Of a stretch of DNA of 64,000 nt, positions 9,345 to 61,017 are shown piece after piece. Source of the DNA: Phycisphaerae bacterium. Lineage in GTDB: Bacteria > Planctomycetota > Phycisphaerae > UBA1845 > Fen-1342. How positions within the stretch are numbered: the first letter of the stretch is position 1; each line of letters opens with the position of its first letter. The stretch covers positions 1 to 64,000 of the forward strand of contig JAGNKU010000014.1 of the NCBI GenBank assembly GCA_017999985.1, given 5' to 3'. The position numbers and the translations under genes were made by a program. The notes below the pieces were generated by a model, which saw only the letters and a program-made list of their open reading frames with translations, made no database searches and had not been told where the DNA came from.

Positions 9345-9411
9345 GGGATCGAGGGATCAAGGGAATGAGGGTGCGGGGGAAAGGGAACAGGGGATGGGGA
9401 ACAGGGAACGG
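9345..9411. repeat. G-rich simple-repeat cluster after polA
   Basis: Two related units stand side by side: GGGATCGA/GGGATCAA/GGGAATGA (9345-9371) and GGGAACAG copies (9383-9411). Four GGG tracts with 5-nt loops in the first block could fold as a G-quadruplex. Both unit families also occur inside ileS (58.7-60.4 kb). Confidence 0.8.
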
Positions 9412-57534: not shown

Positions 57535-60500
57535 CTAGGCCGGCACGATGCCGAGCGTGACCTCGTGGCCTTCGATCCGCGCCGTCTGGGTCTCCGTGCC
57601 GGCGGGCGGTGCGGAGTGGTGGATTATAGCGGCGAGGCACTCGTTCTGGATGGTATTCGCATAGCGGGCCGCAATATCCAGCACGGGCGCCGGGCCAGTC
57701 ACGTATAAGGCGACGCGTGCCTCGTAGGCCAGTTTCTGGCTCTTGCGCAGTTCCTGCACCTGGTGGATCAACTCACGGCACAGCCCCTCGTCGCGCAGCT
57801 CCGGGGTGAGTTCGGTTTTGACGACTACGACGCCACCACGGCCCTGGGCCGCGGACCAGCCGGGCTTCGCCTCCAGCCGGACGGCGACCTCCTGCTCGGT
57901 AAGGTGCACGGCCTGGCCTGCGACGGTCACGGTCAGCATGCCGGTCTCGACGAGCGCCTTACGGGCGGCGGTCGGCTCCAGCGCGGTGAGGGCGGCAGCG
58001 ACCTCTTTGGCGAGCTTGCCGAACTTCGGGCCGATGGCCTTGAAGTCGGGCTTGATCTGGTAGGTCACGTACTGCTCGGCCTCGGTCGTAAAGCCGACCT
58101 GCTTGATGTTCAGCTCTTCCGCGATAAGTGCGCTATGTGACTGCAGCCACTCCGTATGCTCTCGGCGGGCGAGGATGATCTCGGCCCGGGCGAGCGGCTG
58201 GCGGACCTTGAGCTTCGCGGCCGTACGCGCGGCGCGGCCGAGGGAGACGATCTGGCGGACAAGGTCCATCTCCTGCGCGAGCCCCTCGTCGATGAGCGTC
58301 TCATCGGCCGTCGGGTAGTCGCACAGGTGAACGGAGATCGGCTGCCCTTCGCCGCTGCGTGGCTCCGTGGCTGCGTGGCTTTGGTTGATGAGGTTCTGGT
58401 ACATCGTCTCCGCGAAGAACGGCGTGAACGGAGCGATGAGCTGGCTGAGCGTCCAGAGTACGCCATAGAGCGTGTGGTACGCGTCCCACTTGTCCTGGTC
58501 TTTCTGGCCGCGCCAGAAGCGCTCGCGCGAGCGGCGGACGTACCAGTTCGAGAGGCCGTCGACGAAATCGTTGATCCGGCCGGCGGCGGGGTAGTTTTCG
58601 AAGCGATCCATGTTCGCGCGGACGTCGCGGATGGTGCGGTGCAGCTCGCTGATGATCCAGCGATCGAGCTCGGAGCGCTCGGCGGCGGGTCGCCAGCTTG
58701 TTCCCTGTTGCCTGTTCCCTGTTCCCTCGATCGCAAAGCCGTCGATGTTCGCGTAGATGTTGAAGAAGCTGAAGACGTTGTAGAGGCGCACGAGGAACTC
58801 GCGCTGCGCGTCGCGGATGTTGGCCTCCTGGAAGCGGACGGAGGTCCAGGGGGCCTGCGCGCTGAAGAAGTACCAGCGCATCGCGTCTGCGCCGTAGTGG
58901 TCGAAGATGTACGTCGGCTCCTTGTAGTTCTTCGTCCGCTTCGACATCTTCAGCCCGTCCTCGCCCATGACGTGGCCGAGGACGATGCAGGTCTTGTACG
59001 GCATGGGGTACGCGCGCGGAGCATTGGGTGACCCCGGCTTGAACAGCAGCGTACTGATCGCCAGTAGCCCGTAGAACCAGCCGCGCGTCTGGTCGATAGC
59101 CTCGCTGATGAAGTCGGCGGGGAAGCGCTTCGAGAAAGTCTGCACGCTGTTGTCCGCGTGCGGGAAACCCCACTGTGCGAACGGCATGCTGCCGGCGTCC
59201 CACCAGCAGTCGATGACTTCCGGGACGCGCCGCATGCGGGCGGTGGCCGTTCCCTGTTCCCTGTTCCCTGTTCCCTGATCCACAAACGGGCTGTCATACG
59301 TCCACGCGTCGATGTACGGCTTGTGGACCCGCAGGTGATCGGGGATCGTCGGATCTTCGCGTTTCGCCTGCTCCCAGACGCCGCCATCGGTGGCGCCGGG
59401 CTTGGCCAGCAGTTCCGCGTACGAGCCGATTGCTTCCATCTTGCCGGTCTTCTCGCAGACCCAGATCGGCAGCGGCGTGCCCCAGTAACGCTCGCGCGAC
59501 AGCGCCCAGTCCACGTTGTTGCGCAGGAAATCGCCGAAGCGGCCTTCCTGGATGTGCTCGGGCAGCCAATTGACCGCGTCGTTGTTCTTGAGAAATTCCT
59601 CTTTGAACTGGCTTGTGCGGACGAACCAGCTCTGCCGGGCGTACTGGATGAGCGGGTCATCTTCCGACCGCGGGCAGAAGGGGTACTCGTGCTCGATCGT
59701 CGCCTGGTGATACAGGACGCCGCGCTCTTTCAGCTCCTGCATGATCTCCTTGTCGCAGTCCTTTACCCAGCGGCCCTGGTACTTTGCGGGGGCCTCCGCA
59801 CTGAAGTTGCCGTCGGGCTTTACTGCGTTGATCAGCGGGATGGCGTCGAAATCGGCGAACCGCTGCCGCTCGTCCTGGAGCAGCAGGAAGTCCACTTCGC
59901 CGTACGCCGGCGCGATGTGCACGATGCCCGTGCCGGTCTCCAGGTCGATGAAGTCGGCGGGGACCACGCGCCAGGCGATGGCTTGCACGCTGCCGTCCTT
60001 GCACGCGGCGGTCTGGCTGGCCATCGTGCGGGCATAGCAGTCGAATGGCGGCGCATAGCGCAGGCCGATCAGGTCGCTGCCTTTGCACACGCCGATGGCT
60101 TCGAAGTCGTGCTTCGTCTTGCTGGCGACGTCGGCAACCAGCGGGCTGGCGATGTAGAAGCACTCGTTGGTCGTCTTGTCGCGCATCAGGGCGTAGTCGA
60201 TGTCCGGGCCGACGGCGGCGAAGTGGTTGCTGATCAGCGTCCAGGGCGTCGTCGTCCAGACAAGGAGCGAAACGCGCTGAGAGGGATCGAGGGATCCAGG
60301 GATCGAGGGATCAAGGTGCGGCGGTGGGCGGCCTTCGCTCGACCCCTTGATCCCTGGATCCCTTGATCCCTTCTCCGGCACCAGCGGGAACCGGATGTAC
60401 ACCGACGGGTCCTGCACCGTTCGGTAGCCCTCGCCGACCTCGCCGGCGGAGAGGGCCGTGCCGCCCTGGGCCCACCACCAGACGACCTTGTGGCCCTGGT

Positions 60501-61017
60501 AGAGCAGGCCGCGCTCGAAGAGCGTCTTCAGGCTCCACCACACGCTCTCGACATAGCTTTGATGGAACGTGACGTACGCGTCCTCGAGGTTCACCCAGAA
60601 CCCGAGCCGGCGGGTCATCTGCTCCCATTCGCGGGTGTAGCGGAAGACGCTCTCGATGCATTTGCGGACGAATTTCTCGACGCCGTAGGCCTCGATTTCC
60701 TCTTTCGTGTGGATGCCAATGCCCTTGCAGACCTCGACCTCGACGGGCAGGCCGTGGGTGTCCCAGCCGGCTTTACGCTCGACGAGCTTGCCGCACATGG
60801 TCTGATAGCGCGGGAAGAGGTCCTTGATGGCGCGCGTCAGGCAGTGCCCGGGGTGCGGCAGGCCGTTGGCGGTCGGGGGGCCCTCGTAGAAGACGAAGCG
60901 CGCAGCCTCCCGGCGCTGGTCCAGTGAGCGCTGGAAAATGTTGTGCCGCTCCCAGAATTCGAGCACGCGTTCTTCGGATTCAGGAAAGCTGAACTGAGCG
61001 GGCAGCGGCGCGAACAT
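57535..61017 (-). CDS. ileS: Isoleucyl-tRNA synthetase with repeat-derived insertions
   Basis: Class I synthetase, 1160 residues, charging tRNA-Ile and editing Val. HIGH-type motif PTANGLPHPGH near 55; editing domain around LLVWTTTPWTLISN; VPEVIDCWWDAGSMPFAQWGF; KMSKR loop MGEDGLKMSKRTKNY near 690; anticodon region SELDRWIISELHRTIRDV. Length and motifs fit the eukaryote-like (type 2) group. The usual CxxC pair before TALS is absent (VVWWWAQGGTALSAGEV). Four segments are translated simple repeats: after RFPLVPEKG (about 37 residues), DQGTGNREQGT, EGTGNRQQGT and QSHAATEPRSGEG. All lie in loops between conserved blocks and keep frame. GGAGGT precedes the start. Confidence 0.95.
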   Translation of the reverse strand: MFAPLPAQFSFPESEERVLEFWERHNIFQRSLDQRREAARFVFYEGPPTANGLPHPGHCLTRAIKDLFPRYQTMCGKLVERKAGWDTHGLPVEVEVCKGIGIHTKEEIEAYGVEKFVRKCIESVFRYTREWEQMTRRLGFWVNLEDAYVTFHQSYVESVWWSLKTLFERGLLYQGHKVVWWWAQGGTALSAGEVGEGYRTVQDPSVYIRFPLVPEKGSRDPGIKGSSEGRPPPHLDPSIPGSLDPSQRVSLLVWTTTPWTLISNHFAAVGPDIDYALMRDKTTNECFYIASPLVADVASKTKHDFEAIGVCKGSDLIGLRYAPPFDCYARTMASQTAACKDGSVQAIAWRVVPADFIDLETGTGIVHIAPAYGEVDFLLLQDERQRFADFDAIPLINAVKPDGNFSAEAPAKYQGRWVKDCDKEIMQELKERGVLYHQATIEHEYPFCPRSEDDPLIQYARQSWFVRTSQFKEEFLKNNDAVNWLPEHIQEGRFGDFLRNNVDWALSRERYWGTPLPIWVCEKTGKMEAIGSYAELLAKPGATDGGVWEQAKREDPTIPDHLRVHKPYIDAWTYDSPFVDQGTGNREQGTATARMRRVPEVIDCWWDAGSMPFAQWGFPHADNSVQTFSKRFPADFISEAIDQTRGWFYGLLAISTLLFKPGSPNAPRAYPMPYKTCIVLGHVMGEDGLKMSKRTKNYKEPTYIFDHYGADAMRWYFFSAQAPWTSVRFQEANIRDAQREFLVRLYNVFSFFNIYANIDGFAIEGTGNRQQGTSWRPAAERSELDRWIISELHRTIRDVRANMDRFENYPAAGRINDFVDGLSNWYVRRSRERFWRGQKDQDKWDAYHTLYGVLWTLSQLIAPFTPFFAETMYQNLINQSHAATEPRSGEGQPISVHLCDYPTADETLIDEGLAQEMDLVRQIVSLGRAARTAAKLKVRQPLARAEIILARREHTEWLQSHSALIAEELNIKQVGFTTEAEQYVTYQIKPDFKAIGPKFGKLAKEVAAALTALEPTAARKALVETGMLTVTVAGQAVHLTEQEVAVRLEAKPGWSAAQGRGGVVVVKTELTPELRDEGLCRELIHQVQELRKSQKLAYEARVALYVTGPAPVLDIAARYANTIQNECLAAIIHHSAPPAGTETQTARIEGHEVTLGIVPA
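58354..58381 (-). repeat. In-frame octamer repeat in ileS
   Basis: Three GCTGCGTG/GCTCCGTG units (plus-strand reading). Translated, it yields the SHAATEPRS insertion just before the conserved VHLCDYP block. Confidence 0.8.
58700..58727 (-). repeat. In-frame heptamer repeat in ileS, copy 1
   Basis: Four GTTCCCT units (second is GTTGCCT), 28 nt. It encodes EGTGNRQQGT between the IDGF and ERSELDRW blocks. The coding strand has GGG tracts with 4-nt loops. Confidence 0.88.
59249..59276 (-). repeat. In-frame heptamer repeat in ileS, copy 2
   Basis: Four perfect GTTCCCT units, 28 nt, encoding DQGTGNREQGT before MRRVPEVIDCW. The coding strand reads GGGAACA four times, a standard G-quadruplex pattern. 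Confidence 0.9.
60283..60370 (-). repeat. In-frame inverted octamer-repeat cluster in ileS
   Basis: Plus strand: GGGATCGA/GGGATCCA/GGGATCGA/GGGATCAA (60283-60316), then after a 26-nt centre the complementary CCTTGATCC-type units (60343-60370). The arms 60291-60316 and 60345-60370 pair with two mismatches. It encodes the insertion after RFPLVPEKG. Confidence 0.9.

Follow-up and report, generated by a model that had tools for sequence, protein, structure and literature searches.

The intervening sequences (IVS) of 23S rRNA genes have inverted repeats on both flanks, which pair into a stem, and are excised from the RNA by RNase III without ligation of the ends. Repetitive extragenic palindromes (REPs) are thought to be moved by Y1 tyrosine transposases. 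Tandem heptamers have also been described, namely GGGAATC in Xanthomonas and GGGGAYT in Nostoc, which show a preference for four units, are located between aligned open reading frames (ORFs), and occur as paired inverted copies in Xanthomonas (PMC4692102). TAACTGA repeats are found in Beggiatoaceae and cyanobacteria (PMC4679880). Here we describe the first 64,000 nucleotides of contig JAGNKU010000014.1 of a Phycisphaerae bacterium (the window), in which ileS, the gene of isoleucyl-tRNA synthetase (IleRS), carries four in-frame insertions of short tandem repeats. With a probability of roughly 0.8, these insertions are remnants of a family of small mobile elements that encode an IVP family protein (PF05635/TIGR02436), three of them being solo arms (B, C, and D) and one a hairpin (A). 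The element family appears to be previously unrecognised, and the pieces in ileS look like its leftover ends.

The minus-strand ORF of ileS encodes a full-length IleRS (Table 1). It is the sole IleRS gene detected in the assembly, the remaining matches being class I synthetases with 25-30% identity. Tandem Repeats Finder reported five arrays of period 7 or 8 in the window, every one within ileS. A preliminary description of this DNA had claimed four in-frame insertions built from three short units, and the ORF, the repeat calls, and a reading of the coding strand confirm it: the five arrays make up four insertions, all in frame, with ∼4 copies per array. The two arms of insertion A (60282-60315 and 60338-60371) are 34 nt each and 88% complementary around a loop of 22 nt, and the coding-strand RNA is predicted to fold at -73.6 kcal/mol. 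No IVP match was found within ileS, and Pfam gave no intein domain in ileS, in the IleRS of relatives, or in dnaE2.

Table 1. Coordinates of ileS, its insertions, and a further locus with the same units.
Feature	Coordinates	Strand	Content	Tandem Repeats Finder arrays	Residues	Position
ileS, isoleucyl-tRNA synthetase	57535..61017	-	ORF of 1160 aa without internal stop; Pfam tRNA-synt_1, Anticodon_1, DUF5915
Insertion A	60277..60375	-	Hairpin, inverted GGGATCNA arrays (∼4 units per arm)	60281-60316, 60344-60372	215-247	Directly precedes the editing-domain motif WTTTPWT
Insertion B	59249..59281	-	Solo array, GGGAACA x4 (coding strand)	59249-59281	within 580-593	Loop ahead of MRRVPEVID
Insertion C	58699..58727	-	Solo array, GGGAACA x4 (one variant GGCAACA)	58699-58727	within 764-774	Ahead of the anticodon-binding domain
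Insertion D	58354..58380	-	Solo array, AGCCACGN x4, last unit degenerate	58354-58380	within 878-893	
Mixed arrays (locus L050)	9345..9410	+	GGGATCNA then GGGAACA			Probably intergenic, just past a TGA stop

The repeat units are not confined to ileS. A genome-wide search with two-unit patterns, suggested in the preliminary description, returned 29 matches for GGGAACA, 30 for GGGATCNA, and 41 for AGCCACGN, whereas the reversed pattern, used as a control, gave 0 in each case. The units are thus dispersed, and the ileS arrays are not a product of chance. In-frame arrays or hairpins also occur in dnaE2 and in other genes, read as valS (two), argS, dnaE1, fumC, lpxB, and a citrate-lyase-alpha-like gene; these names come from reading the translations, while ileS and dnaE2 were checked with Pfam. 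In the genes named by reading, the coding strand of the solo arrays carries the same strand of the unit as in ileS. An in-frame GGGATC array was also seen immediately ahead of a pilin-like motif (LRAFTLVEVLIVIVVIG) at locus L154 (G000:C7:135205).

The link to IVP genes is found in dnaE2 of the same genome. There, inverted GGGAACA arrays enclose one IVP gene, whose product matches PF05635 with an E value of 7.9e-37, and inverted AGCCACG arrays enclose a second, which is broken by one internal TGA; the unit of insertion D flanks the broken gene. That these arms surround IVP genes in the genome that carries the ileS insertions is what points to the derivation of the ileS pieces. Units such as those in ileS are the arms of putative IVP-encoding elements, which the preliminary description had missed. 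In a first set of planctomycete genomes, complementary inverted arrays of 7- or 8-bp units flank 27 of 61 IVP genes, whereas 0 of the 2685 control positions, taken from the same contigs, have them, and the unit differs from element to element. The association persists when further genomes and 12 plasmid loci taken from named records are added (47/88 IVP genes versus 2/2859 controls; mostly Planctomycetota, but also Cyanobacteriota and others), and 15 of 26 IVP genes are flanked in a Hydrogenedentota set. The arm search was independent of strand and allowed periods 6 to 9, but the 47 flanked genes have units of period 7 (25) or 8 (22) only. Four is the commonest copy number on each side (22/47 left, 22/47 right), and the median element span is 515 bp. 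The similarity of the units also follows the identity of the IVP proteins (Mantel r 0.31, 0/2000 permutations). All four ileS insertions have the unit build of such an element, that is 7- or 8-bp units at ∼4 copies per array, but as three solo arrays and one hairpin they hold no IVP gene between arms.

These observations also bear on a purely local origin, in which the arrays arose by replication slippage and grew in place like ordinary minisatellites, with no mobile element involved. Short tandem units, variable copy number, and some point variants are what slippage would produce. It fits poorly with the recurrence of three units at many sites when the reversed controls give 0, with arrays that form inverted arm pairs on either side of one gene family, and with copy numbers that cluster at four. 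On plasmid pC052_D of Nostoc sp. C052, moreover, arms of GGGAACA/TGTTCCC surround an IVP gene, so the unit of the dnaE2 element adjoins the same gene family in another phylum, and we regard local slippage as very unlikely. The preference for four copies could alternatively reflect selection for four G-tracts in regulatory G-quadruplexes, as considered for GGGNATC repeats of Xanthomonas and Nostoc (PMC4692102), and the preliminary description had made a related suggestion. Circular dichroism of related repeats has been published, and of the four ileS sites, two (59275 and 60370) have a G3 motif on the coding strand and two do not. The four-copy mode is, however, the same in units without GGG (24/52 arms) as in those with GGG (20/42), AGCCACGN has no G-tract, and the arms are inverted around a gene. 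The arrays are therefore not explained by G-quadruplex formation, an account to which we attach hardly any probability.

Presence and absence of whole elements could be compared between two genomes sharing a genus code, G034 and G030. In G034 (L203), two IVP elements interrupt the atp operon between ATP synthase genes, whose names were read from translations, and both are absent from G030. At the first of these sites, all that G030 keeps is a solo array of four units, at the very position of the right arm in G034. The contrast fits gain or loss of elements, in either direction, and the making of solo arrays. Relative to neighbouring genes, the orientation of IVP elements is strongly sense, with 48 sense/sense and 7 antisense/antisense cases, approximate counts that derive from simple gene calls with a few loci mis-oriented.

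Sixteen IVP genes lie inside a host ORF; a further locus (L233) was left out of this set, since its ‘host’ ORF is the ORF of the IVP itself. Thirteen are in dnaE2 (11 in one loop and 2 in another), and three are in restriction-modification genes with Eco57I-type methylase domains (L195, L215, and L222), two of which also have TaqI_C. The host frame runs stop-free across the IVP gene in 16/16 in-gene cases but in only 8/72 intergenic ones (Fisher 5e-12), and in the 15 in-gene cases checked directly the host reads the IVP gene in one and the same alternative frame. The 11 cases of the main dnaE2 loop were found by tblastn, which did not require an open frame, and all are stop-free, so selection for read-through is the likely explanation. 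One in-gene IVP (L188) was seen to be in sense orientation relative to its host. In an IVP tree, which is short and leaves many forks unresolved, the IVPs of restriction-modification genes lie apart from the dnaE2 group, and this suggests that read-through IVPs arose more than once. For the dnaE2-loop IVPs, a test of vertical inheritance by host and IVP identity gave a Mantel r of 0.18 (p 0.22), which would be compatible with repeated invasion.

The IleRS of relatives shows where such sequences can settle. The nearest IleRS sequences come from Phycisphaerae metagenome-assembled genomes, and in each of the relatives' loci inspected the synthetase was matched in one reading frame. Insertions occur at recurrent loops, with content that differs by lineage; together with the dispersal of the units this leaves the earlier account unrefuted, since relatives share the insertion points and not the inserted sequences. 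Two of the relatives (L108 and L122) have, translated as part of IleRS, a Y1 transposase domain that scores above the Pfam cut-off, in L111 the Y1 match falls below the cut-off, and L103 resembles L108 and L122 by eye alone. Besides its Y1-like domain, the L111 loop contains a GSIGVPPVPSAQS-like repeat peptide in >10 copies. Recurrence with differing content, transposase domains included, marks these loops as general landing places. An AlphaFold2 model of the IleRS from the window (mean pLDDT, predicted local distance difference test, 83.6) has six stretches below 50, and four of these coincide with the insertions: 218-227 (A), 584-586 (B), 766-772 (C), and 880-890 (D). The segment 218-227 is coil. 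The structural mapping proposed in the preliminary description thus places all four insertions in low-confidence loops of the predicted structure. Its further proposal, that an active repeat-spreading process had reached an essential enzyme, holds as far as spreading is concerned, which is well supported by dispersed units, in-frame arrays in other genes, and the differing loops of relatives, while activity at the present day is conjectural.

Two other accounts can be weighed against the IleRS comparison. If the insertions were functional extensions of IleRS, selected at the protein level, relatives would be expected to carry insertions at the same loops, as they do. Lineages nevertheless differ completely in what is inserted there, with simple repeats at one extreme and a transposase domain at the other, and the segments are partly predicted at very low confidence, which makes this explanation highly improbable. 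The translated Y1 domains of L108 and L122, the similar segments in L103 and L111, and seven Y1 matches in this genome could instead mean that Y1 (IS200-like) transposases move the repeats, as in the system of REPs and REP-associated tyrosine transposases (RAYTs). An inverted array pair flanks none of the seven Y1 loci of this genome, and such short arrays are missing from the IleRS loops that hold Y1 domains. The two classes share sites but not sequences; Y1-driven movement seems scarcely plausible.

Descent from IVP elements accounts best for the ileS insertions, and draws on the association of arms with IVP genes, the co-variation of unit and IVP, presence and absence between congeners, the solo array at a position where the congener has a full element, the read-through frames, and the loop positions. 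The full element would be ∼500 bp long and consist of an IVP gene with an array of ∼4 units of 7 or 8 bp on its left and an array of their reverse complement on its right. Base pairing of the two arms, in RNA or single-stranded DNA, could give a ∼30-bp stem that encloses the IVP gene. We propose that the element moves as a unit and that shorter forms derive from it, either hairpins of two arms and a short loop (insertion A) or solo arrays (insertions B, C, and D). Full elements are found mostly between or inside genes in sense orientation. Inside a gene they would persist only at a loop, and only if an insert of their length leaves the host frame intact and that frame crosses it without a stop, which lets the ribosome translate through. 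The ileS insertions would then be tolerated because the reading stays open and the sites are loops, and the enlarged IleRS would be functional. The IVP protein is a four-helix bundle related to Avd, as judged from its matches to PDB 2gsc and the bAvd model and from the literature; PMC10053308 mentions the homology, and its reference list names the pentameric assembly of the 2gsc paper. Such a pentamer may bind the repeats and mobilise them in cis and in trans.

Several points weigh against this account. Movement of the elements is deduced from sequence and was in no case observed, and target-site duplications, sought at the empty sites of the G034/G030 pair, were not established. About half of the IVP genes lack a detectable inverted pair, yet one or more arrays lie near 48 of the 61 IVP genes of the first set. 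Arrays of GGGATCNA are many in this genome, yet GGGATC arms were found at 0 of its 6 IVP matches. The correlation of units with IVP proteins may partly reflect host relatedness, and, save for the 11 dnaE2-loop cases, an open host frame was part of what defined an IVP as in-gene. In Pfam the IVP protein matched only IVP/Avd families, and no reverse transcriptase (PF00078) was found in this 98.65%-complete genome. The last point also counts against an element of the diversity-generating retroelement kind, in which a reverse transcriptase would use the Avd-like IVP. The bAvd match speaks for it, the sense bias would fit an RNA step, and the enzyme may have acted in an ancestor, but on balance we consider such an element unlikely.

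Should IVP elements behave as proposed, they would constitute a new class of mobile element in prokaryotes, whose tandem units of 7 or 8 bp are recognised and spread by a four-helix-bundle protein that itself brings no nuclease, transposase, or reverse transcriptase. In some lineages the IVP gene would stay open in the other frame of the host, so that the element can live in polymerase and restriction-modification genes and be translated through. We see about even chances for this wider proposal. The source of the 7-bp repeats of cyanobacteria and xanthomonads has so far not been known, and our data suggest IVP elements as an origin of such 7-8-base repeats, one that is concrete and testable and would give a role to a large protein family of unknown function. 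On cyanobacterial plasmids (L267, L270, and L275), IVP elements were seen between cas6 and cas4, and between cas10 and a Cmr3-family gene; they may explain the presence of IVP among the CRISPR-associated genes of a large survey (PMC10910872). Living in frame within essential genes, ileS among them, and having a nested gene read through in another frame would be an unusual route of persistence for selfish DNA.

Each of the known systems shares some of these features. Diversity-generating retroelements have Avd, to which the IVP protein is related, but they depend on a reverse transcriptase, for which this genome gave no match. The published heptamers (PMC4692102, PMC4679880) likewise have 7-bp units, but those of PMC4692102 were generally not found with mobile elements, whereas here arrays of the same build flank IVP genes. 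We found no publication linking IVP to such repeats, which is weak evidence as most subscription papers and preprints lay outside the search. REP/RAYT systems, or REPtrons (PMC3733652), are similar in that dispersed short repeats flank a dedicated protein gene and in that REPs also occur within genes, but their protein is a Y1 transposase and not a four-helix-bundle IVP, REPs are single palindromes and not tandem arrays, and the arrays described here show no Y1 association. Rickettsia palindromic elements (PMC10969869) are also selfish in-frame insertions in unrelated protein genes, as seen here in ileS, dnaE2, and the genes read as valS, argS, dnaE1, fumC, and lpxB. They are, however, ∼150 bp long and encode a conserved peptide, whereas the present repeats have 7-8-bp units, fall into many families, and are associated with an IVP gene. 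The 23S rRNA IVS are comparable in being inserted within a gene and in encoding an IVP protein, a feature found in the dnaE2 element and not in the ileS derivatives. The hosts of the elements described here are instead protein genes (ileS, dnaE2, and restriction-modification genes) and operon spacers, their arms are arrays of ∼4 units of 7 or 8 bp, and the frame of the host reads through them.
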